DNA from: Candidatus Omnitrophota bacterium
GTDB lineage: Bacteria > Omnitrophota > Gorgyraeia > Gygaellales > Profunditerraquicolaceae
Length of the DNA stretch: 52,716 nucleotides
Direction of reading: 5' to 3'
Assembly: GCA_023819035.1 (NCBI GenBank)
Contig: JAMWCL010000004.1
Location: 1 to 52,716, forward strand
The notes under the pieces were generated by a model that saw nothing but the letters and a program-made list of their open reading frames with translations, had not been told where the DNA came from and did not search any database. The position numbers were made by a program, and so were the translations under genes. Positions 34,671 through 52,652 of this stretch are shown here, piece by piece. How positions within the stretch are numbered: position 1 is the first letter of the stretch; each line of letters starts with the position of its first letter.

Positions 34671-35105
34671 TTAACTGCCGGAGGGAATACAGGTATCATC
34701 CTGTGATAGAGACCGGCCAGAGATAAAAGTAAAACTTTTTGTACCCAAGGTAATACAGTTTAAAGGCCTGGCAGTAAGGATATATCCAGTAGATGTAAAT
34801 TCACAATTATAGGTATAGCCATTTTCTGTTTTTCCACAATAGGCGCGATTAAGATAAGGAAGATCCGCTTCTCCTCCCATTTGCTTTGAGAGTAATTTTT
34901 TCTCATCCTCGGGATATCTACCTTCATGATCCTGAGCATATTTTTCTAAAGCCAAAGAGATGGTTTTTAGTGTCTGTTGAGCCATAGCCTCATTATTTCT
35001 TATGCGTTCCTGTAAAAACTTAGAAATAAAAAAAGCCAAAGTCAAACATACAAAAGCAATGGCTATTACCGCACCTATTAAACTAACCGCCTTATTTTTG
35101 TCCAT
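34671..35105 (-). CDS. Pilin-like protein
   Basis: This 144-residue protein has an N-terminal segment AVSLIGAVIAIAFVCLTLAFF resembling a prepilin helix, but it lacks the usual Gly at the cleavage site and the Glu at +5. A soluble part with two pairs of cysteines (RAYCGKTENGYTYNCEF, LNCITLG...DDTCIP) follows. ALEKYAQDHEGRYPEDEKKL resembles T2SS major pseudopilins. It is the last gene of the pilus run and overlaps the MshEN-PilZ gene by 14 nt. Whether it enters a pilus is open. Confidence 0.75.
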   Translation of the reverse strand: MDKNKAVSLIGAVIAIAFVCLTLAFFISKFLQERIRNNEAMAQQTLKTISLALEKYAQDHEGRYPEDEKKLLSKQMGGEADLPYLNRAYCGKTENGYTYNCEFTSTGYILTARPLNCITLGTKSFTFISGRSLSQDDTCIPSGS

Positions 35106-35940
35106 ACTTACCTGCCAAGGTAATTAACTTATTGCGACTTTCATCATCTATTTGGATAAATTTTATGCCAAGAAAATAACGTTGCTCTTTTTCCATACGG
35201 CAATAGATTATTTCACCCTTTGCTTTGATATTCAATGGGGAACTTGAATTTAAATCGTGCTTAGGTTTAAATTCCAAATTAACTTTTACACCCTTGGGGA
35301 TAAATAAAAATATGTTTAAACCTACTGCTGTTCCCCCGTGAGATATATTACAGGTAGTACCTTCAATAGGTGAAGAATAATGTAATTTTATCTCTTTATC
35401 ATCCAACTGTAAATAAACCGGAATTTTTAAAGGTAGGCGTTCCTGTTCTCGCCAATAACCTATCTTACGCAATGGCTGTTGCTTAAAAACAAATTTTTCT
35501 ATCGCAAATGCCTCTTCAGATAAACCATAGTAGGTATCTAAAGCGCTATTTATTGATTCAATATTAGAAATCAAAGGTTCGATATCTAAACCCGTTATTT
35601 TAGTAATCCTGTCTACTAAAGCAGTATCCAAAGGATTTATCATTGCAATATATAATTTTTCTTTAACCTTAAATAAGGGAATAAATAAGTTTTCTCGACA
35701 AAAACCTTCTTCTACTAAATTTAATACTTCAGATGATATACTATAATCGGAGACCCGGACATAAGGGATACCTGTTTCTTGAGCAAAAAAAATCGCAACA
35801 TCCTCTGAACTAAGAAAACCTAATTTTATTAAACTTGCCCAGATAGACTTTCCCGTCCTTTCTGACTCTTGACTAGCAAGATTAAACTGTTGTGTATCAA
35901 TCCAGTTATCTTGAATAAGTTTTAGGGTTATATCTTGCAT
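35092..35940 (-). CDS. MshEN-PilZ fusion protein
   Basis: This 282-residue cytoplasmic protein has an N-terminal MshEN (T2SSE_N) domain at about 1-145 without the ATPase that normally follows. A C-terminal PilZ domain occupies about 160-280, with both c-di-GMP motifs intact: REQER (RxxxR) and NISHGG (NxSxxG). By eye the two MshEN ligand motifs are degenerate (SIW and DIT where RLG is expected; N for G in the first). It could therefore sense c-di-GMP through PilZ and dock to the pilus machinery through MshEN. It has a good AAGGAG site and lies in the pilus run. Confidence 0.85.
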   Translation of the reverse strand: MQDITLKLIQDNWIDTQQFNLASQESERTGKSIWASLIKLGFLSSEDVAIFFAQETGIPYVRVSDYSISSEVLNLVEEGFCRENLFIPLFKVKEKLYIAMINPLDTALVDRITKITGLDIEPLISNIESINSALDTYYGLSEEAFAIEKFVFKQQPLRKIGYWREQERLPLKIPVYLQLDDKEIKLHYSSPIEGTTCNISHGGTAVGLNIFLFIPKGVKVNLEFKPKHDLNSSSPLNIKAKGEIIYCRMEKEQRYFLGIKFIQIDDESRNKLITLAGKYGQK

Positions 35941-35942
35941 AA

Positions 35943-36515
35943 TTACTCCTTAAGTTGATGAGGATAATACTTCTTCATAAATTCTATCAATGTTTGAGAA
36001 ACCTTCTGTTCATCAATAATATATACTCCCGATTTAGCAATATCACTTTGAGAAACCTCTGGATATCTCTTTTTTACTTCTGCTAATAGCTCTGCATGTT
36101 GTCTGGCGATCTGGAGTAATATCCGGTTATCCCTAATCACATCATAGTAATCCAATGCTTGGTTTACAATTAATTTTAACTCCTCATTATCCCATGGCTT
36201 AGGAATGTAGCGATAGACCTGCCCCATATTTATTGCCTGGATTGCTGAATATAGATCGGGATATCCAGTAATAAGCATCCGAACAGTATCAGGATAAGCA
36301 TGTTTTACCTTGATTAAAAACTCAATACCTGAAATATCAGGAAGACGGTAATCTGTAATAACTAAATCTACACCATTTAAACTTTTAATCTTTTCCCAAG
36401 CCTCAGTAGCGGTCTCCGCAGTAATAATCTGACGATCCTCGGTTTTTAGAAGTCTAGTTAAACTATTTAAGATATTACGTTCATCATCAACCAAAAGAAT
36501 TGTATGCTTAGCCAT
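35943..36515 (-). CDS. Response regulator with short C-terminal helix region
   Basis: This 190-residue protein has a receiver domain (about 1-125) with acidic pocket DDE near 11, phospho-acceptor Asp in DLVITDYRLPD (about 55), switch Thr in MLITGYPDL and the conserved Lys in YIPKPWDNEEL. The receiver is of the RpfG type, but no HD-GYP output follows; instead there is a helical tail (LLQIARQHAELLAEVKKRYP). It likely works by binding a partner. The gene overlaps the PilZ gene by 8 nt and is two genes from a histidine kinase. Confidence 0.88.
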   Translation of the reverse strand: MAKHTILLVDDERNILNSLTRLLKTEDRQIITAETATEAWEKIKSLNGVDLVITDYRLPDISGIEFLIKVKHAYPDTVRMLITGYPDLYSAIQAINMGQVYRYIPKPWDNEELKLIVNQALDYYDVIRDNRILLQIARQHAELLAEVKKRYPEVSQSDIAKSGVYIIDEQKVSQTLIEFMKKYYPHQLKE

Positions 36516-36882
36516 TCTTTTTCTCCTCCTTTATATTTATTGTCTTTACTAGTTGATCAATAAAATCCTGGGCGCTCATGGGGGTAAGCTTAGTGAACAT
36601 AATACCCATGCCTGCAGGATTAATCTTGCCTTCACTATCTTGAGCCGGTTCTTTTCTATTCCAGGCCACTACCCCTTCAGCATGAACAAATTTTTTTTCT
36701 TCTCCCAATTCAAACATTACCTCGATCTTGGTTCCAGGTGGCTCTACATTATTGGTGACCAAAAATAGTCCTCCTGCTGAGATATCCGTTGCATCAATAT
36801 ATTGCCAGAAATTTTGACTACGATATTCTACCGGAAATTTAATATAAGCTCTTTGATATTTTCTTTTTTCTTCCCAACCCAT
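36508..36882 (-). CDS. PilZ-domain protein
   Basis: This single PilZ domain of 124 residues is a predicted c-di-GMP receptor. RKYQR near residue 6 (RxxxR) and DISAGG near 33 (DxSxxG) are both intact, followed by the beta-barrel with GVVAWNRKEP and GMGIMFTKL. Single-domain PilZ proteins act by docking to targets such as PilB or motors; the target is unknown. It lies between a histidine kinase and a response regulator. Confidence 0.9.
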   Translation of the reverse strand: MGWEEKRKYQRAYIKFPVEYRSQNFWQYIDATDISAGGLFLVTNNVEPPGTKIEVMFELGEEKKFVHAEGVVAWNRKEPAQDSEGKINPAGMGIMFTKLTPMSAQDFIDQLVKTINIKEEKKNG

Positions 36883-36899
36883 AGTTCTTCCTCCTTTTA

Positions 36900-37727
36900 C
36901 TAAACCTTGGGTAACTGGATAATAAAACTAGTGCCCTTGTTTACTTTACTTTCTACTTTTATCTCACCTCCATGGTGCTTAATAATATTATAACTTACCG
37001 AAAGACCGAGGCCTGTACCTTTTTTGGTAGAGAAAAATGGATCAAATATCTTGGGTAAAATTTCAGGAGCAATTCCACAACCCGTATCACTAATTTTAAT
37101 ATAAACATTTTTTGTATCTTCATAAGTTGAAATTGTAATCGTACCTTTATTTTCTATAGCTTGACTGGCATTTATTAAAATATTTAAAAATACCTGTGAT
37201 AGTTGCGTGGGGTCAGCAAGAATTGATGTCTTCGCTTGGTAGTCTTTAATTACGGTGATTTTATATTTTATCTCATTCCAAACTATAGCCAATGTTGACT
37301 CCAGTACCTGATTTACATCAGTGGGAACCCTCTGTGTTTCTTCCTTGCGACGCGAGAATGTGCGCAGATCTTGAACAATTCTTTTTATCCGCAAAGCACC
37401 TTCTAATGACTCCTGTGCAATTGAGGTTAAATCATCTAGTATCGCCTGAATATGGAAATCGTTAGAGGTCATTGATTGATTTAATTGATGTGTGTAATCC
37501 TTTAAGGTCTCCAAATTACTGATTAAGAAACTCAAGGGATTATTTATCTCATGAGCAATACCTGCCGCTAATGTACCCAAGGAAGCCATCTTTTCCATAT
37601 GGATAAGTTGTGCTTCCGTTTCCTTAATACGTCGGGTCTTTTCTTTAAGTTTAGATTCCCAGTAAAAACTAATAACTACACCATAAATAATAAAAAAGAT
37701 CAAGACAATAACTAACCAAACAAACAT
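36900..37727 (-). CDS. Sensor histidine kinase
   Basis: This 275-residue kinase has one N-terminal transmembrane helix (about 2-22) and a short coiled linker. The phospho-acceptor motif is LAAGIAHEINNPLSFL (His about 58), and the HATPase domain carries NILINASQAI (N box), DTGCGIAPE (G1), FDPFFSTKKGTGLGL (F/G2) and HHGGEIKV. There is no periplasmic or PAS sensing domain, so a signal is probably received from partners. It sits 3 nt from pilC and heads the PilZ-response regulator segment. Confidence 0.92.
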   Translation of the reverse strand: MFVWLVIVLIFFIIYGVVISFYWESKLKEKTRRIKETEAQLIHMEKMASLGTLAAGIAHEINNPLSFLISNLETLKDYTHQLNQSMTSNDFHIQAILDDLTSIAQESLEGALRIKRIVQDLRTFSRRKEETQRVPTDVNQVLESTLAIVWNEIKYKITVIKDYQAKTSILADPTQLSQVFLNILINASQAIENKGTITISTYEDTKNVYIKISDTGCGIAPEILPKIFDPFFSTKKGTGLGLSVSYNIIKHHGGEIKVESKVNKGTSFIIQLPKV

Positions 37728-37730
37728 TTT

Positions 37731-38957
37731 TTAACCTGAACCCTTAAATACCTGAATCATATTCCATAAAGGTAAGAATATCGCTAAAGCCATACCCATT
37801 ACCACAACACCTAATACCGCAGTCATAATTGGTTCAATCATCGTGGTAAGATTTTTTATAGTAGTTCTTACCTCTAGACCAAAATATTCGCATAAGGAAT
37901 CTAACATTAAGCTTAAGGCTCCACTTTTTTCTCCTACAGAAATCATGTATCCTACTAAGCGAGGAAAGTATTTACTTTCTAAGACCCCTCCGGAAATACC
38001 CTTACCATCCGCCACATCACCTTTTATCCTCTGTATCTCTTTAGTTAATACCGCATTACCAATCGTCATACCCACAATATCTAATGTCTTAAGCACAGGT
38101 AGTCCTGCTTGATAAAGTACGCTTAACATCGAGGCAAAACGTAACATTGTAATTTTAATATAAATCTTGCCTACGATGGGTAGCTTAAATTTTTGCCCAT
38201 CCCACCAAAACCTTCCTTTTTTGGTATTAATAAATGTTCGGCACAAGACAAACAAAAATATCAAGGAAGGAAAGGTAATATACCAATAATTTTTAAAAGC
38301 ATTGCTTATAAAAATCATAATCTGAGTAGGTAAAGGTAATTTAATCCCTGCGCTCATATAAATCTTGGCGAACTGCGGAATAACGAATACAGATAATACA
38401 AAGATAGCCACAAATAAAGCAATTATCACCATGATTGGATATCTTAAAGCAGATTTAATGTTCGTGCGTGTTTGAAGGTCTTCTTCTAACATCTGGGCAA
38501 GTCTTAGGAGCACTTTATCTAGTACCCCTGCGCTTTCACCCGCAATAACTGTATTTACGTATAAATCAGAAAATACCCCGGGATGCTTAGCCATCGCCAA
38601 AGAAAGACTTAATCCTCCTTCTACATCATGGGTAACCTGATTTAAAGCAGTTTTTAATGCAAGATCATCGGCTTGTTCTGCTAATACCCCTAATCCCTCA
38701 ATAATCGGAACCGCAGCCTTTATAATTGTGGCAAATTGACGCGTAAAGATGACCAGGGATTCTATCCTAACTTTTTTAGTCTTTTTAAATAAATTCTCTA
38801 ATAAAGAGGCTTCTTTTTGAGACTTAAAACTTATACTTATCGGCATGTAGCCGATCTTAGCAAGCTGGGTGGTAACTTCTACCTCACCACTTGCTTCCAA
38901 TTCACCTTTGATTATCTTCCCTTTCGAATCTACTGCTCTATAAATATAGATGGGCAT
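37731..38957 (-). CDS. pilC: Pilus platform protein PilC/MshG (GspF family)
   Basis: This 408-residue inner-membrane platform links the ATPase to the growing pilus. N-terminal YIYRAVDSKGKIIKGELEA and two T2SSF domains (about 70-195 and 272-395) are present. TRQFATIIKAAVPIIEGLGVL and GESAGVLDKVLLRLAQML (first), and LRFASMLSVLYQAGLPVLKTL and VGEKSGALSLMLDSL (second) are typical. Three TM segments are visible. It is 1 nt from the AAA gene. Confidence 0.95.
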   Translation of the reverse strand: MPIYIYRAVDSKGKIIKGELEASGEVEVTTQLAKIGYMPISISFKSQKEASLLENLFKKTKKVRIESLVIFTRQFATIIKAAVPIIEGLGVLAEQADDLALKTALNQVTHDVEGGLSLSLAMAKHPGVFSDLYVNTVIAGESAGVLDKVLLRLAQMLEEDLQTRTNIKSALRYPIMVIIALFVAIFVLSVFVIPQFAKIYMSAGIKLPLPTQIMIFISNAFKNYWYITFPSLIFLFVLCRTFINTKKGRFWWDGQKFKLPIVGKIYIKITMLRFASMLSVLYQAGLPVLKTLDIVGMTIGNAVLTKEIQRIKGDVADGKGISGGVLESKYFPRLVGYMISVGEKSGALSLMLDSLCEYFGLEVRTTIKNLTTMIEPIMTAVLGVVVMGMALAIFLPLWNMIQVFKGSG

Positions 38958-38958
38958 T

Positions 38959-39795
38959 TTAACTAAAATTAAAATCCTTTATTACCAAATTGATTAAATC
39001 CGGTTCAATCCTTGAAACCTTTTTGGCAAAGCCTTCCATAAGTAAAAGATCTAAAAGGGTATTGATCCTTCGCGGAATGCCACCTGTATGTTTAAATATT
39101 TGTTTTATTGTTTCCGAAGAAAGTATGGGATTAGTATCTATATCCTTTCTACCGGCAATCCTTAAACGATGATTTATATATTTAGTTACATCATCTTCTT
39201 TAAGGGGTTCCAAATTACAGCGTACCGCGATCCTCTGACTTAAAGGTTTACTCGCATCTACTTTATCTTTTAATTCGGGCTGACCCATAATAATTAAGCT
39301 TAAAAGGAACCTATCTTCTGATTGAAAATTTAAGATAAGGCGTAACTGCTCAAAGATATGCATATCCTCAATCGTATGTGCCTCATCAATAATCACAACA
39401 TTCTGTTTGCCATCGCGTAAGTTATTTAAAAGAATATTATTTAATTTTTCAAGGAGGGGGTCAGCTAATAACTCGGTTTTCTTCTCTGGCAAGGTAACCT
39501 CAGGACTTAACCCCCGTACTATTGCACGTAATAGCTCTGATGGCTCTAAAAAACAAGGATTGGTAATAAAAGCACAACGCACCCTATCTTGACCTAAATC
39601 ATTTAATATGACCTTTGCAATAAGGGTTTTTCCGCAGCCAAATACCCCGGTAAGCATACCACAACCTAAATCTTGAGCAATTACATAGGTTAACTTCATC
39701 AAAGCCTCTTCATGTTGACCGGAAAGATAAAGATAACGTGGATCTGGTGTATTCTGAAATGGTTTCTCGTTAAGACCCCAATATTGCTCATACAT
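38959..39795 (-). CDS. MshM/ExeA-like AAA ATPase
   Basis: This 278-residue AAA protein of the GspA/ExeA group starts MYEQYWGLNEKPFQNTPDPR, the family signature. Walker A is GVFGCGKT (about 50-57), Walker B NVVIIDEAHTI, and GGIPRRINTLLD is the sensor-2 helix. ExeA's periplasmic peptidoglycan-binding part and TM are missing, as in MshM. It is probably cytoplasmic and helps to assemble the secretin or other parts. It lies between the ATPase and pilC. Confidence 0.9.
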   Translation of the reverse strand: MYEQYWGLNEKPFQNTPDPRYLYLSGQHEEALMKLTYVIAQDLGCGMLTGVFGCGKTLIAKVILNDLGQDRVRCAFITNPCFLEPSELLRAIVRGLSPEVTLPEKKTELLADPLLEKLNNILLNNLRDGKQNVVIIDEAHTIEDMHIFEQLRLILNFQSEDRFLLSLIIMGQPELKDKVDASKPLSQRIAVRCNLEPLKEDDVTKYINHRLRIAGRKDIDTNPILSSETIKQIFKHTGGIPRRINTLLDLLLMEGFAKKVSRIEPDLINLVIKDFNFS

Positions 39796-39799
39796 TGGA

Positions 39800-41623
39800 T
39801 TATTTCTCTCTTCGACTTAACCAATTGGCAATGCGTTTTTGATATTCTTCTAACTGCGAGGCATCGACCCTTACCGGAGTAATCGCTGGTTTTTCTTTTG
39901 GTGGAATTTGAGGTTCTGCTGGTGATGCCTCAGCCTTTGCCTCCGTAAGCGGCCTTAATTCTACCTGTTCTTCGCAAACCCTAGCTACTTCCTCAATAGT
40001 AGTAATACCCGCTAAAACTTTACTGACTCCGTCTTCGGCTAAAAGACGCATTCCCTTCTCCTGTGCCTTCTTGCGCAAAGCTACTGTAGAAGCCTGAGAA
40101 ATAATCATTTCTCTTAACTCATCATCTATAATCATTAACTCGAATATCCCGGTTCGACCTTTATATCCAGTACCTCTACATTGTTCGCAACCTCTACCTC
40201 GGTAAAGAATAAGATTTTCCTTTCCTGAAAGCCCCCATCTTTCTAATAGCGCCTTAGATGGTGTATAGGGTTCTTTACAATTATCACAGATTACCCTCAC
40301 CAAACGCTGTGCCATCACCCCAATAAGACAGGCAGAGATAAGATAAGGTTCAACCCCCATATTTACTAAACGTGTCACTGCTGAAGGTGCATCGTTAGTA
40401 TGTAAGGTAGATAAGACTAAGTGTCCGGTAAGTGCGGCTTGAATTGAGATAATTGCGGTCTCTAAATCCCTAATCTCTCCCACCATAATTACATCGGGGT
40501 CCTGGCGTAAGATAGAACGTAAGCCATTAGCAAAGGTAATCCCTGCCTTGGGATTTACCTGTATCTGACGAATAAGACCTAAGCGATACTCTACAGGGTC
40601 TTCAATTGTAACGATATTACGATCAATAGTATTTATTCTCATTAAGGAAGAATACAAGGTGGTAGTTTTACCACTACCTGTTGGACCGGTAGAGAGGATT
40701 ATACCATAGGGTTTAGAGATTATACTTTCAAATCTTTTTAGTTCCTCATAGGTACTAAATCCTAGTTTCTCAATACCAATCATTACGGAAGCGGTATCTA
40801 ACAAACGCATAACCAGATTTTCTCCGTATACGGTAGGGATAGTAGAAACACGAAAATCGATTATACGATCCTCAAATTTAGCCTGAAAGTGTCCATCTTG
40901 AGGGATTCGACTCTCTGCGATATCCATACCTGCTAATACCTTAATACGGGAGATTATTGCCGACTCCCATTCTTTAGGGGGTGAGGGTATCTCATGAAGA
41001 ATACCATCGATTCTAAATCGTATACGCGTTATCTCCTGTTCTGGCTCAATATGGATATCAGAGGCGCGGTCACGAACTGCTTGAGCAATAATTAAATCTA
41101 CTAACTGAATAACTGTACTGCCTTCTCCTGCGGTTCCTTTTGATTCAGATGAGGTCTTAGCCTTTAAATCATCTAAGAAGTCCTTAGTAATCTTGCGTTC
41201 TGAATATAATTTATTCTGAGCTTCCTTTATTTCTTCGGGCGATGATAAATAGATCTCAAGAGGCATATTTGTATGAAGCTGAATGCGATCAACATAATAA
41301 AGATCGGTAGGATCGACCATTGCAATATGTAATTTACCATTCTCAATCATAATGGGAATAGACTGGGTTTGTCTAGCTAAATCCATGGGCATTATCTTAA
41401 TCAATTCTTCATTGGGCTGAAGATTCTCTAAATTTACATAAGAAAACCCTAAATGCTGGGCAATAGTCTCGTATAAAGAGGCACGGGTTAAAAGATGCCT
41501 ATCGATGATTATCTTTTCTAAAGGCCTTTTTAATTTTTTTGTTTCATCAACTGCCTGTGCCAAATCCTCTGGAGAGACAAGCCCCGAACTAAGGAGTAGA
41601 TTTTCTAATTCCTCATCGGTCAT
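39800..41623 (-). CDS. pilB: Pilus assembly ATPase PilB/MshE
   Basis: This 607-residue hexameric ATPase drives pilus extension. An N-terminal MshEN domain (about 1-145) is followed by VQLVDLIIAQAVRDRASDIHIEP, Walker A GPTGSGKTTTLYS (about 312-324), the Asp box and Walker B, and the zinc tetracysteine CDNC...CEQC. The MshEN ligand motifs look weakened (ELE and PLE where RLG is expected), so c-di-GMP binding is doubtful. A proline-rich C-terminal extension (EAKAEASPAEPQIPPKEKP) of about 60 residues is unusual. It overlaps the TPR gene by 4 nt. Confidence 0.94.
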   Translation of the reverse strand: MTDEELENLLLSSGLVSPEDLAQAVDETKKLKRPLEKIIIDRHLLTRASLYETIAQHLGFSYVNLENLQPNEELIKIMPMDLARQTQSIPIMIENGKLHIAMVDPTDLYYVDRIQLHTNMPLEIYLSSPEEIKEAQNKLYSERKITKDFLDDLKAKTSSESKGTAGEGSTVIQLVDLIIAQAVRDRASDIHIEPEQEITRIRFRIDGILHEIPSPPKEWESAIISRIKVLAGMDIAESRIPQDGHFQAKFEDRIIDFRVSTIPTVYGENLVMRLLDTASVMIGIEKLGFSTYEELKRFESIISKPYGIILSTGPTGSGKTTTLYSSLMRINTIDRNIVTIEDPVEYRLGLIRQIQVNPKAGITFANGLRSILRQDPDVIMVGEIRDLETAIISIQAALTGHLVLSTLHTNDAPSAVTRLVNMGVEPYLISACLIGVMAQRLVRVICDNCKEPYTPSKALLERWGLSGKENLILYRGRGCEQCRGTGYKGRTGIFELMIIDDELREMIISQASTVALRKKAQEKGMRLLAEDGVSKVLAGITTIEEVARVCEEQVELRPLTEAKAEASPAEPQIPPKEKPAITPVRVDASQLEEYQKRIANWLSRREK

Positions 41624-42321
41624 TTGATACCTAACCCCTTTTTTAAATATTCAATCCTTTGTTTTATCTTTTTAATCTCCTCTTTGTTTGAGGCAAGTTT
41701 TAAATACCGTAGATAACAGTTAATTGCCTCTTTTTTATTGATAAGATAACTATCGTAGAGAATCCCTAGATTATAATAAGCATCCTTGTCTTTAGGATTT
41801 AATTTAACTGCCATTTTAAAAGATTCCTCTGCTTGAGCATACTGATTTATTTTAATATACTCTACACCTAAATTATAATAAAGATTACTATTTTGAGGTT
41901 GAAGTTGAATAGCTTTAAGATAAAATGTAATTGCTTCTTCGTATTGATTCTTCTGGTCTAATTCCATAGCAGTTCTGGCTAAGGTAACCGCAGTTTCTCC
42001 TCCTGATTTTAATTCAGCCTCCTGGGATTCTTCCGTAACTGGAGCTTTATCTTCTTTAACTGATCCTACCAGTGTTTGTAGTTCCAATGAAGGTGATTCT
42101 AAAAGGATCTGTGCTTTTTTAAACTCCTCATCTGCTGCCTGGAAATCCTGCGTTTCAATTAATTGCTTTCCTCTTAGATAATGCTCTTTTGCCTTCTGTA
42201 TCTTTTCTTCGGTAGATAATATTTTATCTTGTTCAGCAAACAAATTCATATGAAAAATTTCCATAAACATTACCAAGATAAATAAACCAATAAACTTAAA
42301 ATATCGGTAATTATTTTTCAT
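41620..42321 (-). CDS. TPR protein (MshN-like position)
   Basis: This 233-residue exported protein has a signal peptide or anchor (about 8-28), a helical region, and at least three TPR units, including AITFYLKAIQLQPQNSNLYYNLGVEYI and AEESFKMAVKLNPKDKDAYYNLG. It is predicted to be periplasmic. A TPR protein stands at this position in MSHA clusters (MshN), where its role is poorly known. It overlaps the coiled-coil gene by 11 nt. Confidence 0.85.
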   Translation of the reverse strand: MKNNYRYFKFIGLFILVMFMEIFHMNLFAEQDKILSTEEKIQKAKEHYLRGKQLIETQDFQAADEEFKKAQILLESPSLELQTLVGSVKEDKAPVTEESQEAELKSGGETAVTLARTAMELDQKNQYEEAITFYLKAIQLQPQNSNLYYNLGVEYIKINQYAQAEESFKMAVKLNPKDKDAYYNLGILYDSYLINKKEAINCYLRYLKLASNKEEIKKIKQRIEYLKKGLGIK

Positions 42322-43414
42322 TTTTTACCTCGGTTTTATTTTCAGGATATAACTGCACCTCTATCTTTTTGCTTGATTCTGGCTCAGCTTCTGTTTGTGA
42401 AGAAGTAGAAGATAAAGGTTTACCAAAAAGCTCATTAAATTTCTTAAATCTTTCCTGTAAATCTGTATTTAATTGCCCTATCTGGATATTTAATTGCCCT
42501 ATCTGGATTAATTGTTTCTGTAGATCGTTTAAATAAAGATTAGTTTGATTTAAACGTAAATTCAAATCCTCTTTTTCCAATTGAAGTGCCACATACCTTT
42601 CTCTTAAGTTAATATTTTCTTTTTTGAAATCTTCTAAATCCGATTCTAGCTTTTTACTTTTGTTTTCTGTATCTATTAATTTAGTCTCTAAGCCCAATAT
42701 CTTATCTGCTCTTTTGCCTAACTCTATATCCTTTTTCTCAATAAGCTCCCTTAAATTCTTCTCCTCTGTCTTTAAAGATACATAATCTTGATTTAAACGT
42801 GCTAATTCAACATTAAGTGAATTTATCTGTTCCTGAAGTTTCTGATTTGTCTGTACAAATGAGTTCAGTTTATCCTCAAGTTCTTTTTGTTTTAAAAGTG
42901 CTTCTTGTTTTTGTTTAATTAGAAGCTCTTTCTCTTCTAAACCTGACTGTTTTTCTTTAAGTAGCTTTGAATACTCTTGATTCATCCTCTTTAATTCTAT
43001 ATTTAATCTCTCCAGTTCCTTATTTAAGTTAAAATTATATTCTTTCAATTTTTTAATGAGAATCTTTAATTCTTCATTTTCTTTCTTTATTTTATTCTGC
43101 TTTAACTGGGCGATAAGCTCTTGTTCTTTTGCTATCGATTCTTTCAATCTTTCTTCTAATTGTTGTTTATTTTCATTTGTCAGTTGCAGAATTTCTTTCT
43201 GATAAGAGAGATCTTTCTGCAATAAAATATTTTCTTTCAGGATAGCATCTAAGACACTCCTGAGATGCTTAACCTGGACTTGTAATCTATCTAAAGCTAA
43301 TCTTTGTGATTTTATATTTAAGAAAAGACCTTTTTCTAAGGTTAAAAAAATCAGAAAGACTAAAGCTATAAATGCAAAAAGGATTGTTAAAAATAGATTT
43401 TTTTTATCTTTCAT
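42311..43414 (-). CDS. Membrane-anchored coiled-coil protein
   Basis: This 367-residue protein has an N-terminal TM helix (about 6-28) and then a nearly continuous coiled coil to about residue 330, rich in Leu/Lys/Glu heptads. A repeated QIGQLN unit lies near 310 and a short acidic tail follows. No domain is recognised. It lies between the secretin and TPR genes. It may be a periplasmic spacer that spans from inner membrane to secretin, or an interaction hub. Confidence 0.8.
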   Translation of the reverse strand: MKDKKNLFLTILFAFIALVFLIFLTLEKGLFLNIKSQRLALDRLQVQVKHLRSVLDAILKENILLQKDLSYQKEILQLTNENKQQLEERLKESIAKEQELIAQLKQNKIKKENEELKILIKKLKEYNFNLNKELERLNIELKRMNQEYSKLLKEKQSGLEEKELLIKQKQEALLKQKELEDKLNSFVQTNQKLQEQINSLNVELARLNQDYVSLKTEEKNLRELIEKKDIELGKRADKILGLETKLIDTENKSKKLESDLEDFKKENINLRERYVALQLEKEDLNLRLNQTNLYLNDLQKQLIQIGQLNIQIGQLNTDLQERFKKFNELFGKPLSSTSSQTEAEPESSKKIEVQLYPENKTEVKNEK

Positions 43415-43441
43415 ATCTCTACTCCTTTTGATTTGACCATT

Positions 43442-44791: not shown

Positions 44792-44804
44792 CTTTCACCT
44801 CGAT

Positions 44805-45266
44805 TTAATCTTTGGGTAATCCTAAATAAAATATTTGACCATCCCGATGTTGTAGCGTAACCTTATCCTTCTCAACAGAAACCACTTCATAATCTCCCAC
44901 CCTATCTCCGGCTTTAACTATCTCATTATTAATAAAGGCGTATCCTCTTTTATCTGCGCCAAAAGAAATACCTTTAAGATGAAGCTCACTTTGAACAAAT
45001 TCACTGCCTTTTTCTAAACTAAAGGGATCCCTGCCCCAGCTAAGGTTTAAACGCTCTTTTTGTAAATTCAATATCTTCTCATCTAAGGGGGTCTCAGTAA
45101 AAACAGGGGTTGCTTTATTACTAGAAAGACTGGAGGTTGTCGATTTCGGAGGGGCAATAGGAGGTTTTCTTTTTTTACTGGTGGTCTTAAGATTATTCAT
45201 TATCACCATAATAAAAACTACACTTAAAATTCCTGTAATAATCAGTTCCTTGATTTTTTTATCCAT
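44805..45266 (-). CDS. pilP: PilP/MshK-like protein
   Basis: This 153-residue protein has one N-terminal TM (about 10-25), a proline-rich flexible stretch (KKRKPPIAPPKSTTSS), and the PilP-type motif NLSWGRDPFSLEKG (about 74-87). A small beta domain LKGISFGADKRGYAFINNEIV...GDYEVVSVEKDKVTLQ follows. It connects the PilO/N inner-membrane complex to the secretin. It lacks the usual lipobox and uses a TM anchor instead. Confidence 0.85.
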   Translation of the reverse strand: MDKKIKELIITGILSVVFIMVIMNNLKTTSKKRKPPIAPPKSTTSSLSSNKATPVFTETPLDEKILNLQKERLNLSWGRDPFSLEKGSEFVQSELHLKGISFGADKRGYAFINNEIVKAGDRVGDYEVVSVEKDKVTLQHRDGQIFYLGLPKD

Positions 45267-45267
45267 T

Positions 45268-45885
45268 CTAAAGTTCCCAAATCATATAGGTACTTAAAAG
45301 CATTGTAGCCAGGATCTCCTTAGCAGATGACTCAGATTTTTTGCCTATCTTTTCTGAACCAGGTGATTGCGGCTCAATGCTCGTTGGTTCTAAAATCAAT
45401 GTCTCGATCTTAAAAGCAAGGGGTGATTCAGCAATAGATTTTATAAATTCACCTACTAAACGATAAGGACAGCTCACGATTACCTCAATATAAGTCTTGG
45501 TAACCCCTAAAGGTAAACTCTCATTTTCATCCTTTATATCTTCGCGGGGTCTTATCGAGATAATCTTTTTGATATTTAGTCTATTTGCGATTTGGCCTAA
45601 TAACTGAACAGCCCGGGGCAATTGTTTTCTACTTATCCCTAATTCTTTAAGCTCTTCACTTTTTTTCTGAATCTCCTCCAGTGCTTTCTGTGGGTCAGGA
45701 AAATTTCGGATAAGCATCTCGGATTCTTTAATCTTATCTTGCTTCGCCTTTAATTCCTGACGCAACCTTCTTTCATATTGTATTGCGGGTCTACCTAAAA
45801 AAATATATAATCCCAATAGAAAAATAAGAAAGCCCAAACAACTAAGGAAGATATTCAACATTCTATTTTGGGGCTCTTTAAACAT
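45268..45885 (-). CDS. pilO: PilO/MshJ-like inner-membrane protein
   Basis: This 205-residue protein has one N-terminal TM (about 12-30), a coiled coil (RRLRQELKAKQDKIKESEML) and a ferredoxin-like domain with LPRAVQLLGQIANRLNIKKI and YIEVIVSCPYRLVGEFIKSI. PilO-like proteins form a dimeric periplasmic ring with PilN. It starts 5 nt after the PilM-PilN gene and precedes pilP by 1 nt. Confidence 0.87.
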   Translation of the reverse strand: MFKEPQNRMLNIFLSCLGFLIFLLGLYIFLGRPAIQYERRLRQELKAKQDKIKESEMLIRNFPDPQKALEEIQKKSEELKELGISRKQLPRAVQLLGQIANRLNIKKIISIRPREDIKDENESLPLGVTKTYIEVIVSCPYRLVGEFIKSIAESPLAFKIETLILEPTSIEPQSPGSEKIGKKSESSAKEILATMLLSTYMIWEL

Positions 45886-45890
45886 CTTAT

Positions 45891-47684
45891 TTAATAATTA
45901 AGTTCGCAGATAATTTCAAAGTTTGCTGCAGGAATTGAAGAGTACATATCCTTTTTGCTTGTAACCAATTGCGCATGTTTAAAAAATGGTGATTCTTCTA
46001 AAGCCATAAGATACTGAGAAAGTGCCAGATCAACAATAGTATAGCGAGCAAAAATCTTTCCTTCTAAATGAATCTGGCGGGGTTCTTTTTTCTGCGGGAT
46101 CGCGATGCGGTTTAAAATAACATCGTTAGGGGTAATATTACTTAATTCTTTTAATATACCCCACCAGATGGGTTGCCTACCTTCTGCTTTTTTTATTAAT
46201 TCCTTCCTCTGTTCCAGTTTTGTTTTGGTAAGAACATATTCCCTCGCTTTAGAGGCAATTGGTTCTAAACGATTTATCTCTGCCTCCAGTTTACTTAACC
46301 AGATTTTATATCTTAAGGCATTGGCATAAGCTAATCCATAAAAAGAAAGGCTAAAAGTAAGTAGTAAAGGAAAAACTATTCTTAAGAGGGTAGTAGCGAA
46401 GATGACTTTCTGCTCCACTCTTTCTTTTAAAGGAAGGAGATTTACCTTTCCTCCATTTCCTAAGCAAAGACCAAAAGATACCGCCATGTGACTGGCAACC
46501 TGCTCCATTACCATCTCTTGTTTAAATACACTGGTGTCCTGCCAACCCTTTAACGCTTGCAGGGTGTTAAGTATCTCTACCTTCTTTAATCCCTCAAGAT
46601 TATATAAGAGAAATTTATCTAGATTTTTTAAACGTGCACTCCCACCGGTAAGATATAACTCTTCAATGGGCTCAGATTTAAATGTCTTAATGTAGAAACT
46701 TATAGTGCGGTTAATCTCTGTAACCAATCTTTCTAAGGTAGGCCTTAATAGGGAGGATAACTGATTACCTAATATTACTCCAAAATCCGTAAGATATTGT
46801 GTCTGAGCGTCATCATCCAAAGGAATGCCACATTGTCGCTTAATCTTTTCTGCATCCTCCGCCAAAATATTTACTGTTCCCAAGGAGGTAGTAATTGTCT
46901 TAGTCAACGCTCTTGTGAGATGCTCGCCTGCTACCGGAATCTCGCGCGAAAACTGTAAGGCATTTCCTTTATAAAAATTAAGTAATGAGCAGGAGGCACC
47001 TATATCCAAGACTACGGTGGTCTTATCGGGAGTAATCTCAAGACAATATGGCAGAAGATTTCCAATTGCATCAGGAATTACATTTATACTGCGCGGTCTT
47101 AAGCCCATCTCTTTTAATAATTGCACCTGCTCATCAAGCACAAAGCGGTCGCAGGCAATACAGGTAACCTGAAGATTCACCCCTCCACCTTCATCATGTA
47201 TCTCATCGGTAACGAAGAAGTCAAAAAAAACATTAGAAAGATCGGTTTGAAAAGGAAGTCGCTTCTTTAACTCAATACTTACCGCTCCCCTAAGATCCTT
47301 CTTACTTAAGGCAGGAATGATTAAGGAAAGAATAAATACGCCTTTGCCTGAGATAGCAGTACGTCCTAAGGTAGTCTTTACCCGTGCATCGGCAATAAAC
47401 TGTTTAACAAATTCCCGAACAAATCTTCTTTTTTGTTGAAAAGTATCTTTAGCAGTAGAAGGGATTGCCCGTGTAATATAATTGGTAATAACATAACCGG
47501 TTCTTATCTTTTGAAGTTGAACAATCTTTATGTGACTGGAGCCTATATCTAAACCAATCACATTTTGAGTGGAGGCAAAGAAACTCTTAATTGAAGAAAG
47601 GATTTTTTCTGGTGAGAGCTTAAGTTTAGAGAGATCGATTAACTGGTTTTTTTTAATCTGAGATTCCTTTAAAGAATCTACCAT
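45891..47684 (-). CDS. pilM: PilM-PilN fusion protein
   Basis: This 597-residue protein has a PilM actin-like ATPase at about 40-410: NVIGLDIGSSHIKIVQL opening, TTVVLDIGASCSLLNFY phosphate loop, and EELYLTGGSARLKNL. It is followed by a TM helix (about 432-452) and a PilN domain (coiled coil LSKLEAEINRLEPIASKAREY, then IWWGILKELSNITPNDVILNRI and IHLEGKIFA). PilM and PilN normally are separate and joined by the PilN N-terminal tail; here they are one chain. It is the first gene downstream of a strong promoter. Confidence 0.92.
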   Translation of the reverse strand: MVDSLKESQIKKNQLIDLSKLKLSPEKILSSIKSFFASTQNVIGLDIGSSHIKIVQLQKIRTGYVITNYITRAIPSTAKDTFQQKRRFVREFVKQFIADARVKTTLGRTAISGKGVFILSLIIPALSKKDLRGAVSIELKKRLPFQTDLSNVFFDFFVTDEIHDEGGGVNLQVTCIACDRFVLDEQVQLLKEMGLRPRSINVIPDAIGNLLPYCLEITPDKTTVVLDIGASCSLLNFYKGNALQFSREIPVAGEHLTRALTKTITTSLGTVNILAEDAEKIKRQCGIPLDDDAQTQYLTDFGVILGNQLSSLLRPTLERLVTEINRTISFYIKTFKSEPIEELYLTGGSARLKNLDKFLLYNLEGLKKVEILNTLQALKGWQDTSVFKQEMVMEQVASHMAVSFGLCLGNGGKVNLLPLKERVEQKVIFATTLLRIVFPLLLTFSLSFYGLAYANALRYKIWLSKLEAEINRLEPIASKAREYVLTKTKLEQRKELIKKAEGRQPIWWGILKELSNITPNDVILNRIAIPQKKEPRQIHLEGKIFARYTIVDLALSQYLMALEESPFFKHAQLVTSKKDMYSSIPAANFEIICELNY

Positions 47685-47744
47685 TTTAAGAGAAGTCCTG
47701 TTTTGTCAAAAGATTACCCAACGCTAACTTATTTAATTATAATT

Positions 47745-47773
47745 ATTTTACAGATTTTCCAAAGCACTGTCAA
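47745..47773 (-). promoter_or_regulatory. Promoter of the pilus machinery run
   Basis: TTGACA, a 17-nt spacer and TAAAAT lie on the minus strand, about 60 nt upstream of the PilM-PilN ATG. It separates the machinery genes from the minor-prepilin genes upstream. No strong terminator is visible between the two. Confidence 0.85.
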
Positions 47774-47805
47774 GGGATTTTAGTTATCACTGTTATATGT
47801 CTTTC

Positions 47806-48075
47806 TTAGCGGGTAGCGCGGACCTTAATTACCTGAAGTTCTTGTTGCATCTGGCTTTGGGTATTAAGGATAAGGTCTAATTTCTGAAGGATTTGCTTCT
47901 GATTTTCTAATTGGATAAGCACCCGATCAAGTTTGGCTTCTACTTCTTTAAGTCGGTCCGCTAAATCTTCAATAAAGATCTGATCCTGGGGATAATTCTG
48001 GGCTCTTAATAGATTAAGGGCAGTGATTAAAAAGAGGGTAATTAAGAAGATAAAAAAAATATTTTTTTTAAACAT
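47806..48075 (-). CDS. Small exported coiled-coil protein
   Basis: This 89-residue protein has a hydrophobic signal sequence (about 4-24, possibly cleaved near LLRAQ) followed by a coiled coil: IEDLADRLKEVEAKLDRVL and LENQKQILQKLDLIL. No known domain is recognised. It is the last gene of the minor-prepilin group, 42 nt after the PilX-like gene. It might oligomerise in the periplasm. Confidence 0.7.
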   Translation of the reverse strand: MFKKNIFFIFLITLFLITALNLLRAQNYPQDQIFIEDLADRLKEVEAKLDRVLIQLENQKQILQKLDLILNTQSQMQQELQVIKVRATR

Positions 48076-48117
48076 CCTCTACCTCCTATTTAGATAAGAT
48101 ATTTATAAATTCTTATC

Positions 48118-49824: not shown

Positions 49825-49838
49825 TTTATCTCCTTATT

Positions 49839-50339
49839 TTATAGATTTCGCGGATATACCTGTGTCCGAAGTATCTTTGTTTGTCCACCCGAAGTTACTT
49901 GAATCTCTATAACAATCCGAGAGATATCGGAAAAATTTGAAACACTACAATTACATTCAGGTAAACAACTTGGTTGATTATCAAAGTTATAATAACAAAA
50001 TTTTAAACTCGTAACATTGCCTGCTAAAATATAAGAATTGCGCATCAGATTATTACCGGAGAGATAGAAGTTTATACTATTCTCATTTATATCGGTAAAT
50101 TGAAATTGATTTACCGAAGCAACCGATATAGAGAGGCTATCTCTTACCTCTCTTATCTCGCGTTGCATCCGACTCAGGGCAAGCCTTACCTCTGAGACTA
50201 CCTCGTTACGAAAGCTTAAGAAACGCCACAGATCAATAATTTCTTTTATATACATGCTAGACACCCCTACTAAAACCGCTACAATTATAATTACCATTAT
50301 TAATTCAATTAAAGTTATGCCCTTTTTCTTATGTATCAT
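49839..50339 (-). CDS. Minor prepilin (PilW-like)
   Basis: This 166-residue protein has the type III signal KKKGITLIELIMVIIIVAV: Gly cleavage site, N-terminal methylated residue I in place of F, and the conserved Glu at +5. The soluble domain contains RMQREIREVRDSLS and a CCCYNFD-like small disulfide region (CYYNFDNQPSCLPECNC). It fits a PilW/MshO-type minor pilin by position. Confidence 0.85.
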   Translation of the reverse strand: MIHKKKGITLIELIMVIIIVAVLVGVSSMYIKEIIDLWRFLSFRNEVVSEVRLALSRMQREIREVRDSLSISVASVNQFQFTDINENSINFYLSGNNLMRNSYILAGNVTSLKFCYYNFDNQPSCLPECNCSVSNFSDISRIVIEIQVTSGGQTKILRTQVYPRNL

Positions 50340-50362
50340 TATTTTATTTCTCCCATAAATCT

Positions 50363-50827
50363 TTAATAAAATGTCACAATTGTTACCAAACTAACCTCAC
50401 CTGCTAATTGTTCACTGCGTAAAACCGAGACAGTGATACGTTTAAAATTCGTTGTACTTGCTGAACTCTCCCAGATATTTGTATTTAAGGTAACATAATC
50501 TACGATACAGCGACGTGTATATCCAGGCGCAGGACTATCCAAATAGCCATTAAAATCATCTACATCATCATAATCTAACCTTTGGTTTTCTCCACTATTA
50601 GGACCTAAATTAGGATTGCTTCTATCCTGGGGATCAACAAATTCTTTTGATTTTATCTCCTCCATTAATTCTTCGGCATAAAAAGTTGCCTCAGCAATTG
50701 CTTCAGAGCGACTGGACCTTAAAGCCACCTCTGCCCACATCCTTAAAAGCACCGGGATAGCCACGCCTAAGACAACAATGATTGTAATTAATTCAATTAA
50801 AGTTAAAGCCTTTCTTTTTATTACCAA
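50363..50827 (-). CDS. Minor prepilin (PilV/MshD-like)
   Basis: This 154-residue protein has KRKALTLIELITIIVVLGVA at the N-terminus: Ala replaces the usual Gly before the cleavage site, while the Glu at +5 is kept. The globular part has EATFYAEELMEEIKSKEF and a strand-rich end. It overlaps the GspH/FimT-like gene by 7 nt. A PilV/MshD-like role is assigned from order. Confidence 0.85.
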   Translation of the reverse strand: MVIKRKALTLIELITIIVVLGVAIPVLLRMWAEVALRSSRSEAIAEATFYAEELMEEIKSKEFVDPQDRSNPNLGPNSGENQRLDYDDVDDFNGYLDSPAPGYTRRCIVDYVTLNTNIWESSASTTNFKRITVSVLRSEQLAGEVSLVTIVTFY

Positions 50828-51321
50828 TTTATCCTTCCTGTATTAGGACTAATATAAATTGTAATATTATTTCCTCCGTAAGATAGATTAATCCAGCCAC
50901 TATTAGTTAAAGGATTGCCATTGGCATCCTGCGGTTCTCCCTTCCAATTAAAGCGCAAAGAGCTTGTTCCGCCAAAATTAACCCCTGTAATATCGATACC
51001 CCTGTATTGTGGGTCGGTAGTAAAATTAGTTTGCATATTCGCTCTAGTGAAAGGGTCAATTGCATAAGCATTATCCAAGACCCGGCGTGCCTCATAGGTA
51101 TCGGTAATAGCATTAAAGTTTAGGTAATAATCTTGGTGTTGACTAATCGCTAATTGTTGAATATATCTAATATCAGAAACAGTTTTTTTAACCGCTCCGC
51201 TTAATTTTATCATAGAGAAACTGGCAAAACGAGGGATGCTTAATCCCGCAAGGATACCGATAATTAGAATTATCATCACCACTTCAATAAAATTATATCC
51301 CTTCCTTAAAACCTTATTCAT
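50821..51321 (-). CDS. GspH/FimT-type minor prepilin
   Basis: This 166-residue protein has the signal RKGYNFIEVVMIILIIGIL, with Gly cleavage and Glu at +5, then the GspH/FimT-like sequence GAVKKTVSDIRYIQQLAISQH and a beta-strand domain ending YISPNTGRI. It is the first gene of the prepilin group and is divergent from the ComFB-CheR gene. The ribosome site is weak (AGAG). Confidence 0.85.
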   Translation of the reverse strand: MNKVLRKGYNFIEVVMIILIIGILAGLSIPRFASFSMIKLSGAVKKTVSDIRYIQQLAISQHQDYYLNFNAITDTYEARRVLDNAYAIDPFTRANMQTNFTTDPQYRGIDITGVNFGGTSSLRFNWKGEPQDANGNPLTNSGWINLSYGGNNITIYISPNTGRINW

Positions 51322-51400
51322 CTCTGTTCATCTTTTATATCCTCTAATATAAATTATAATATATCTAAAATGAAAAAGCCAGTAAAATATAAAAAAATAC

Positions 51401-51429
51401 TTTTCAATCTACCTGATTTATGGTATATT
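51401..51429 (+). promoter_or_regulatory. Promoter of the ComFB-CheR gene
   Basis: TTTTCA, a 17-nt spacer and TATATT lie on the plus strand. The predicted start site lies within a few nt of the ATG at 51439, so the message may be leaderless. No Shine-Dalgarno was seen before that ATG or before the upstream ATG at 51370. Confidence 0.6.
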
Positions 51430-51438
51430 TTATTTTTG

Positions 51439-52530
51439 ATGGCTGAAAAGGTTAAGAATATTGTGGAGGATATTGTAAGAGAGTATCTTAACGTTTCTCT
51501 TTCTTTGCGATATGACATCTGTACCTGCCCTCTCTGCAGAAACGCAATGCTTGCAGAAGCACTCTCTAATATCCCACCTAAATATGTTTCTACTGAAGAA
51601 GCGGGTATGCGAGCAGTAATTGAGCAGACCCGCCTTGAATATCAAGCAAGAATTGCCAAAGAGGTTTTAAATACAATAGACAGGATCAGTAAAAATCCTC
51701 CACATGAATTAAATGAAGATAAAAAACAGGCATTTAGATTACTCCTTAATAAGATCTATGAAGATAGAGGATTAGATTTTCGGCATTATCGAGAGGGGAT
51801 TTTAAAAAGAAGATTCGCCTTAAGGATGCATGCAAATAAGGTGAAATCCTATGCCGAATATCTTTTACTTCTCAACAAAACTCCTGAGGAATATGAAAAA
51901 CTCTTTGAGGCCCTCTGCATTAATGTCTCAGAATTCTTCCGTGACCCTCCAGTCTGGGAGGTAATAGAAAAAATCCTAAAAGAACTTATTAAAGAAAGGG
52001 TCGAAACCAATCAATCCCTTAAGATCTGGTCAGCAGGCTGTGCTAATGGAGAGGAACCTTATTCAATAGCCATTCTTATAAAAAAAATCTTAAAAGATTA
52101 TCCTCCGGATAAATTTAAAGGTGTGGAGATCTTGGCTACCGATATTGATAAACAGGTATTAAGGAATGGGGAGAAGGCAGAATATAGCTTAGCGAGTTTG
52201 AAAAATGTCTCTCCGAGAGTTTTAAAAGAATATTTTACTTACGAAGATGGACGCTACTGCATAATTCCTGAGATAAGAAAGATGGTCTTATTTAAACATA
52301 TGGACCTAATCCTGCAAGAGCCCCAGATTAAAGATTTAGATATAATCCTTTGTCGAAATGTCTTTATTTATTTTAACCGCAGTCTCCAAGACATCTTGTT
52401 TACCAAATTCTACAAATTTTTAAAGTCAGGCGGTTATCTGGTGTTAGGCAAGGTGGAAACTATATGGGATGAGGTAAAGGATATTTTCGAAAAAGTGGAC
52501 TTAGAAAACCGGATATTCCGCAAGAAATAA
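51439..52530 (+). CDS. ComFB-CheR fusion protein
   Basis: This 363-residue protein (386 if the ATG at 51370 is used) has an N-terminal ComFB domain, about 3-88: EDIVREYLNVSLSL, then CTCPLCRNAMLAEALSNIPPKYV with three cysteines. A CheR-type methyltransferase covers about 95-360: LRMHANKVKSYAEYLLLL, NVSEFFRDPPVWEVI, the SAM site SAGCANGEEPYSIAILI, and DIILCRNVFIYFN. ComFB has recently been described as a cyclic-di-nucleotide receptor; CheR methylates chemoreceptor glutamates. No chemoreceptor or CheB is in the window. The preferred start lies downstream of a promoter and it is divergent from the prepilins. Confidence 0.88.
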   Translation: MAEKVKNIVEDIVREYLNVSLSLRYDICTCPLCRNAMLAEALSNIPPKYVSTEEAGMRAVIEQTRLEYQARIAKEVLNTIDRISKNPPHELNEDKKQAFRLLLNKIYEDRGLDFRHYREGILKRRFALRMHANKVKSYAEYLLLLNKTPEEYEKLFEALCINVSEFFRDPPVWEVIEKILKELIKERVETNQSLKIWSAGCANGEEPYSIAILIKKILKDYPPDKFKGVEILATDIDKQVLRNGEKAEYSLASLKNVSPRVLKEYFTYEDGRYCIIPEIRKMVLFKHMDLILQEPQIKDLDIILCRNVFIYFNRSLQDILFTKFYKFLKSGGYLVLGKVETIWDEVKDIFEKVDLENRIFRKK

Positions 52531-52625: not shown

Positions 52626-52652
52626 CCTCTCGTCGTGAGAGGATTATTTTTT
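52626..52652 (+). terminator. Terminator after ComFB-CheR
   Basis: CCTCTC-GTCGT-GAGAGG followed by ATTATTTTTT forms a 6-bp hairpin with a T tract on the plus strand, about 95 nt after the CheR stop codon. Confidence 0.85.

Follow-up and report, generated by a model that had tools for sequence, protein, structure and literature searches.

How does a second messenger reach the motor of a type IV pilus (T4P)? The question is open: according to a 2024 review, the contribution of the MshEN/N1D domain is poorly understood and the roles of PilZ and FimX vary among species (PMC11656802). It is raised by a pilus operon in the window analysed here, one entire contig of 52,716 nucleotides (C12) from the metagenome-assembled genome G000 of a Candidatus Omnitrophota bacterium (1.25 Mb in 57 contigs, 92.6% complete). 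Motor, sensor domain and PilZ are split here into separate genes and fusions, which amounts to a natural dissection of the interface. The gene for the platform protein PilC is followed by those for a histidine kinase (HK), a stand-alone PilZ protein, a response regulator (RR) and a fusion of an MshEN with a PilZ domain (MshEN-PilZ), and a gene for a ComFB-CheR fusion lies divergent from the prepilin genes. We regard it as very probable that HK, PilZ, RR and MshEN-PilZ form a conserved pilus-associated signalling block. Its fixed gene order in many relatives suggests that pilus assembly is switched by signals in an undescribed manner.

Conservation of the signalling block

The operon occupies positions 34671–51321 on the minus strand, with all named genes present as intact open reading frames (ORFs) identified by Pfam/NCBIfam or by layout. 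The preliminary description, made from the window sequence, had reported an unbroken run from PilM-PilN through PilC into the signalling genes, and this was upheld: all the way from PilMN to the terminal ORF (34671) the intergenic spacing is −14 to +27 bp. It had also proposed that the linkage be looked for in related genomes. Neighbourhoods were gathered using searches with MshEN-PilZ and a scan for PilC with two peptide patterns, by which distant analogues could be missed. Among 59 same-family genomes the MshEN-PilZ search gave eight near-full-length homologues besides that of the window (32–52% identity), and in a phylum sample of 285 genomes it gave 13, from three families of one class. 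The PilC pattern scan was the sole test outside Omnitrophota; 20 of its 21 loci were labelled Omnitrophota and one Planctomycetales.

Fifteen loci, drawn from at least three families of a single class, carry the arrangement PilC-HK-PilZ-RR-MshEN/PilZ complete and in the same order (the window, L039, L040, L041, L042, L070, L071, L073, L076, L079, L081, L083, L088, L103 and L104). Signalling and pilus genes are thus co-located in the relatives, and recurrence of one arrangement in 15 loci excludes chance linkage. Three further loci are cut by contig ends (L043, L075, L080). In seven others (L044, L045, L047, L084, L089, L090 and L106) PilC is directly followed by MshEN/PilZ, without HK-PilZ-RR. 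Junctions within the block are short or overlapping in most loci, and wherever PilC and the fusion occur in one locus, the fusion adjoins PilC or the block that follows PilC.

On a 24-row PilC tree, two changes account for the distribution of the HK-PilZ-RR block, where shuffled labels require 5.4 on average; this fits an ancestral block with two losses. In five block-less genomes the nearest RR-like sequences match the receiver only, at 33–38% at best (with none in G293); in two block-bearing genomes, used as controls, the same search gave 61–66% over the full length. Since no close RR occurs elsewhere in the five genomes, the gene was lost and not relocated, and a move of the HK block to another site was ruled out by the same search. 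Protein distances within the block track those of PilC (r = 0.91 for HK, 0.88 for PilZ, 0.86 for RR and 0.87 for MshEN-PilZ; permutation p = 0.0005). PilMN is matched at E<1e-200 in 8/59 same-family genomes, own genome counted. MshEN/PilZ is present in all eight genomes with a PilMN orthologue and in one of the 51 without, and the contig of this exception is cut inside PilB. As judged from these sequences, the signalling genes are supported as a conserved, co-inherited part of the pilus locus.

Cyclic di-GMP receptor motifs

The second messenger cyclic di-GMP (c-di-GMP) is probably made in this genome, given its four GGDEF domains, three of which read GGEEF. In the mannose-sensitive haemagglutinin (MSHA) pilus c-di-GMP is the controlling messenger and is bound by MshE, the ligand motif of MshEN consisting of two copies of RLGxx(LVI)(LVI)xxG(LVI)(LVI)xxxxLxxxLxxQ with a 5-residue spacer (PMC5013675). 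The motif was scored over 22 positions against this published consensus. Window PilB scored 13/22 and the window fusion 7/22, with R1, G3 and Q24 missing from both half-motifs in both proteins. Across the cluster, 18 PilBs scored 10–14/22 and 23 fusions 7–12/22, where a shuffled PilB N-terminus gave a mean of 7.1 and a maximum of 10. By contrast, a stand-alone MshEN of the same genome reached 20/22 and the second-cluster PilBs of three relatives 16–18/22. The MshEN-PilZ fusion that had been described is therefore present, but with a degenerate MshEN that is unlikely to bind c-di-GMP.

Both PilZ domains of the window carry the motifs of c-di-GMP receptors, RxxxR and (D/N)xSxxG, and are predicted to act as such. 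In the stand-alone PilZ, R7, R11, S35, G37 and G38 are invariant (16 loci); in MshEN-PilZ, R164 and R168 of RxxxR are invariant in 24 loci and S200 is kept in at least 23. With the MshEN residues lost from PilB and the fusion, and the PilZ motifs mostly intact, c-di-GMP sensing appears to have shifted from MshEN to the PilZ proteins.

Precedent for PilZ at the motor comes from Xanthomonas citri, in which PilZ binds the N1 domain (N1D) of PilB (PMC11656802). PilB-PilZ-FimX regulation with PdeK-PdeR in Xanthomonas resembles the present system in having PilZ on PilB N1/MshEN, a c-di-GMP input and a two-component system (PMC11656802). There, however, FimX and not PilZ binds c-di-GMP, whereas here both PilZ domains keep their ligand motifs; the window operon lacks FimX and has the MshEN-PilZ fusion, and its RR lacks an EAL domain. 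On contig C6 of G000 a PilB-type ATPase of 705 residues is fused to a C-terminal PilZ (L136:976–3093, plus strand) and followed by PilC; a stand-alone MshEN of 187 residues with near-perfect c-di-GMP motifs directly precedes it (L136:413–976). Because a covalent PilB-PilZ fusion is encoded in the same genome, an action of PilZ on the motor is supported. The 1.25 Mb of G000 hold 20 PilZ domains and ten T2SSE-type ATPases, so that genes related to c-di-GMP and to filaments are densely represented.

With so many PilZ domains in the genome, PilZ proteins would serve many targets, and seven loci do without the block; it could then be a general c-di-GMP/phosphorelay module that is carried in the pilus operon for convenience of transcription and has its targets elsewhere. 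We consider this unlikely. The linkage is conserved across families with mostly short or overlapping junctions, the fusion carries a motor-like MshEN, and its place next to PilC or the block is constant; these points argue against such a module.

The pilus machine

The genes of the locus are listed in Table 1. They include a T4aP-like core set of extension ATPase, platform protein, alignment proteins, secretin and prepilins (Pfam T2SSE, T2SSF, PilM_2, PilN, Secretin and N_methyl). None of the curated MSHA, T4P and type II secretion system (T2SS) cut-offs that were tested on the machine proteins of the window was reached. The T4P models came near (PilB TIGR02538, 607/676 bits; PilQ TIGR02515, 232/284; PilM TIGR01175, 128/133), and those of GspE, GspD and GspF likewise remained under their cut-offs. 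No match in Pfam or NCBIfam was found for the 568-residue PilX/GspK-like protein.

Table 1. Genes of the pilus and signalling locus, in descending order of position after the divergent ComFB-CheR gene
Feature	Position	Strand	Basis
ComFB-CheR fusion, 386 aa, divergent from prepilins	51370..52530	+	Pfam ComFB 2.6e-13, CheR 1.6e-51
Prepilin 3, GspH/FimU/ComGD-like minor pilin	50821..51321	-	NCBIfam ComGD 2.6e-7, below cut-off; homologues at same place in L042, L104 and others
Prepilin 2, GspI/PilV-like	50363..50827	-	NCBIfam XpsI 0.005 (weak); position conserved
Prepilin 1, GspJ/PilW-like	49839..50339	-	Pfam N_methyl 1.5e-5; TIGR02596 2.3e-6, below cut-off
PilX/GspK-like large minor pilin, 568 aa	48118..49824	-	N-terminal hydrophobic helix ...ALIIVVSAMILFAILGW...YIAEAG; homologue at same place in relatives
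Small exported coiled-coil protein, 89 aa	47806..48075	-	Conserved before PilMN in relatives
PilM-PilN fusion (PilMN)	45891..47684	-	Pfam PilM_2 8.6e-31, PilN 4.2e-6
PilO-like	45268..45885	-	Pfam T2SSM/PilO weak; position conserved
PilP-like	44805..45266	-	Position, conserved in relatives; no match in Pfam
Secretin	43442..44791	-	Pfam Secretin 5.6e-47; under GspD, PilQ and MshL cut-offs
Coiled-coil membrane protein	42311..43414	-	Sequence reading; homologues at same place in relatives
Tetratricopeptide repeat (TPR) protein	41620..42321	-	Pfam TPR 1.5e-18
PilB extension ATPase with MshEN	39800..41623	-	Pfam T2SSE 1.9e-138, MshEN 7.9e-19
AAA ATPase, MshM-like position, TIGR03015 relative	38959..39795	-	Pfam AAA_22 1.4e-19; TIGR03015 199 of 324.5 bits
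PilC platform protein	37731..38957	-	Pfam T2SSF 5.9e-56
Histidine kinase	36900..37727	-	Pfam HisKA 4e-10, HATPase_c 6e-27
Stand-alone PilZ	36508..36882	-	Pfam PilZ 6.6e-10; RxxxR and DxSxGG intact
Response regulator, 190 aa, receiver and tail of ~70 aa, helical	35943..36515	-	Pfam Response_reg 9.8e-21
MshEN-PilZ fusion	35092..35940	-	Pfam MshEN 8.1e-19, PilZ 9.2e-11; RxxxR and NxSxxG intact
Membrane-anchored ORF, operon end	34671..35105	-	Pilin-like N-terminal helix only (MDKNKAVSLIGAVIAI...); no significant family match

The MSHA operon of Vibrio and Shewanella (mshIJKLMNEGF) likewise unites PilM/N/O/P, secretin, TPR protein, a motor of the MshEN type, AAA ATPase and PilC in a single run, so the label 'MSHA-like' in the preliminary description stands for the layout. 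It does not stand for the individual proteins: the secretin scored 145/250 bits against MshL (TIGR02519), the AAA protein also missed its cut-off (Table 1), and the MshEN of the motor lacks the c-di-GMP-binding residues. In the msh order the AAA gene (mshM) follows the secretin gene, whereas in the window it lies between those of PilB and PilC; the parallel with msh that had been drawn thus holds for the overall layout but not for this gene, which is missing altogether from some members of the cluster. To our knowledge, HK-PilZ-RR-MshEN/PilZ forms no part of msh.

The terminal ORF had been called pilin-like. As a major pilin it was ruled out, since it lacks the G^F..E prepilin cleavage signature and differs from the pilin that relatives have in this position. 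Several relatives have a major-pilin-like gene after the signalling block, and the nearest match to their terminal pilin in G000 is on another contig (C52, L050:2844–3185). Only one gap is larger, that of 121 bp before PilMN; it holds a near-consensus promoter-like site (TTGACA-17-TAAAAT, 47773–47745, minus strand), and a terminator-like hairpin is found at 52626–52642, 3' of ComFB-CheR; both are pattern matches. The contig ends just past ComFB-CheR. In L088 the pilus operon is immediately followed by dnaA and dnaN (L088:14085–16717), and genes of matching length come after it in L073 and L076.

A DNA-uptake or T2SS-like secretion apparatus in place of a pilus for adhesion or motility, with the block controlling competence or secretion, would account for scores against GspE, GspD and GspF about equal to those against the pilus models, with no cut-off passed by either, for four minor pilins in GspH-I-J-K-like order and for the presence of ComFB, a competence-related protein (PMC12313861). 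It is quite unlikely in our view, given the PilM-PilN fusion, PilO and PilP, two PilT retraction ATPases in the genome (468 and 407 bits; cut-off 319) and the major-pilin-like gene that several relatives have after the block, all of which favour a pilus.

Histidine kinase and response regulator

In the HK, H59 (the phospho-acceptor) and the residues of the N, G1, F and G2 boxes are invariant in 18 loci; in the RR, the same is true of D55, T83 and K106 in 17. The window HK has a single N-terminal hydrophobic helix, no sensor domain being recognised in it, and its core resembles AtoS/ZraS/T2SS_HK kinases. Between HK and PilZ, seven relatives encode a protein of 66–80 residues with two hydrophobic stretches (L039:4738–4980, L040:2680–2886, L041:12715–12924, L042:14739–14957, L075:2838–3047, L081:12312–12512 and L083:2189–2392), which is absent from the window.

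Beyond the receiver, neither Pfam nor the structure model of the RR revealed a DNA-binding (AAA or helix–turn–helix, HTH) or enzymatic domain. In the model, which is of modest confidence, α5 is extended to ~40 residues in a coiled-coil-like manner and is followed by a short final helix; the same short tail is kept by 15–17 homologues. The tail as a new output domain was not borne out, the model showing an extended and a short helix and the best structural matches being plain receivers. The receiver is closest to those of REC-HD-GYP proteins (NosR family over residues 6–148; at 41% identity, PDB entry 3hv2, a receiver from an HD-domain protein).

Kinase and regulator genes within pilus clusters are a known layout, as with PilS-PilR in Myxococcus and Geobacter (PMC6060248), but there the likeness ends: the RR of the window consists of a receiver and a helical tail, and PilZ and MshEN-PilZ are added. 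Because this RR lacks a DNA-binding domain (NtrC-type AAA plus HTH), the two proteins are not a PilS/PilR pair. An ordinary PilS/PilR-type transcriptional switch beside pilC, with the PilZ genes as separate regulators, is hence highly unlikely despite the known layout and the AtoS/ZraS/T2SS_HK-like kinase core, since the short tail is retained in its homologues and PilZ and MshEN-PilZ are interleaved with the RR in fixed order.

ComFB-CheR and the chemosensory genes

The divergent orientation of ComFB-CheR to the prepilins, reported earlier, was seen again in the window and in five relatives (G014, G002, G242, G170 and G003, the last at a contig edge). The ComFB domain is above the Pfam cut-off (50 versus 25 bits). 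In an alignment of 14 fused homologues CxCxxC is kept, and the core residues of the CheR S-adenosylmethionine-binding and catalytic motifs (NVSEFFRD, WSAGCANGEEPYS, ATDID and CRNVFIYF) are near-invariant. A tandem ComFB-CheR pair stands beside the prepilins in G014 and G002 (L046:3449–5682 and L051:1764–3874), two genomes without the HK-PilZ-RR block. In G170 the contig of ComFB-CheR also holds a separate ComFB and CheR, at a distance of 26 kb. A ComFB-associated CheR was found in 8/9 pilus-positive genomes of the family versus 1/50 others (Fisher p = 4e-8, uncorrected for relatedness).

Related genomes have a separate operon CheY-CheC-CheA-(CheC)-FtsA-fold protein-ComFB-CheR-CheY-CheD-CheB-CheC, in which no receptor gene was seen and with which the ComFB-CheR fusion co-occurs. 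It lies near the pilus operon in G004, G005 and G047 and on another contig (C52) in the genome of the window. Its conserved FtsA-fold (also PilM-like) protein has 719 residues and C-terminal beta-rich repeats (L050:11906–14065, plus strand, on C52), with homologues beside ComFB and CheR in L041, L047, L049, L052, L055 and L062. The window's genome encodes one methyl-accepting chemotaxis protein (MCP), one separate CheW, one CheA with a CheW domain and two CheR. With two CheR and one MCP, the one receptor would have ComFB-CheR as its second methyltransferase. Candidate MCP genes in the neighbourhood of ComFB-CheR were ruled out, being a hydrogenase/NuoF pair, an ABC transporter, phenylalanyl-tRNA synthetase (PheRS) and TrkH. 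The sole MCP and the sole stand-alone CheW are encoded on either side of two small cytochromes of the c554 type, adjacent to TatC (L069:8805–11875, contig C20), a neighbourhood that hints at redox-sensing input.

ComFB, a receptor of both c-di-AMP and c-di-GMP, exerts control over pili in cyanobacteria (PMC12313861), and FrzF sets a precedent for the addition of a control domain to CheR (PMC3447774). The window system shares with Pil-Chp/Frz a CheA-type pathway tied to pili and such a modified CheR (PMC3447774), but the added domain is ComFB, and the chemosensory operon has a further ComFB gene and the FtsA-fold actin-like protein. With cyanobacterial ComFB/CdgR it shares the ComFB domain and the link to type IV pili (PMC12313861); that paper mentions no fusion, whereas here ComFB is fused to CheR. 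The combination of ComFB, CheR and cyclic di-GMP was not found in the literature searched.

Proposed mechanism

We propose that the operon encodes a type IV pilus (T4aP/MSHA-like) together with its own block for post-translational control, and that extension is gated by c-di-GMP and a phosphorelay with a tie to chemosensory adaptation; our confidence in this reading is evenly balanced. The protein–protein contacts, nucleotide binding, direction of control and biological role are those that we would infer from the genes. PilB would have kept the MshEN fold and lost its own c-di-GMP pocket. Nucleotide from the GGDEF proteins would be read by the two PilZ proteins of the same operon, the free PilZ and MshEN-PilZ. 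The orphan MshEN of the fusion may imitate the N1 domain of the motor, so that PilZ-bound nucleotide acts at the PilB/PilC/PilM base by capping PilB, loading it or competing with it. The membrane-anchored HK would phosphorylate a receiver protein without DNA-binding or enzymatic output, the helical tail of which might dock on PilZ, MshEN-PilZ or motor proteins; by such docking the phosphorelay and c-di-GMP would jointly gate extension. In parallel, ComFB-CheR may set the methylation of a chemoreceptor array encoded elsewhere in response to the same messenger.

A fuller form, which we put forward tentatively and consider somewhat unlikely, is a distinct signalling pilus of one Omnitrophota class: the motor's sensor would have been discarded, PilZ proteins (one with a decoy sensor) would have taken over under a phosphorelay, and ComFB-CheR would set receptor methylation by the same messenger. 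The parts and single links are known already (MshE, PilB-PilZ-FimX, PdeK-PdeR, Pil-Chp, FrzF and ComFB). For the five-gene arrangement, the fusion of a degenerate MshEN with PilZ, and ComFB-CheR with an FtsA-fold chemosensory operon, no description was found in a search of literature largely outside subscription papers.

Several observations weigh against the proposed mechanism. The pilus can do without the phosphorelay, because seven loci lack HK-PilZ-RR, and L087 has no recognisable PilZ. The last glycine of the PilZ motif is missing in some fusions (G002, G014). PilBs of the pilus clusters of two other relatives also score low (L056 and L064, 9–10/22), so that degeneracy of MshEN also occurs outside this cluster and the loss of the MshEN residues may not be compensatory. 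The congruent distances and co-occurrence partly reflect shared ancestry; vertical inheritance alone predicts the congruent distances, which by themselves are no proof of contact, and the Fisher values treat genomes as independent. ComFB-CheR is not always beside the pilus: it is unlinked in G004, directly precedes CheY-CheC of the chemosensory operon in G217 and is divergent from CheC-CheA of that operon in G028. The preliminary description had supposed that a nucleotide second messenger, a phosphorelay and a methyltransferase meet at this pilus. The co-inherited block, the four GGDEF domains and the adjacency of the methyltransferase in several genomes agree with this, but the methyltransferase gene lies outside the operon and, in G217 and G028, at the chemosensory one.

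Implications for Omnitrophota

Omnitrophota are uncultured, mostly ultra-small bacteria for which a life on hosts or prey by means of pili has been proposed (PMC10066038); no mention of c-di-GMP together with Omnitrophota was found in the literature searched. If it is nucleotide-responsive, ComFB-CheR would connect cyclic dinucleotides directly with the adaptation of chemoreceptors. If the fullest reading is true, a chemoreceptor methyltransferase would itself be a direct cyclic-dinucleotide effector.

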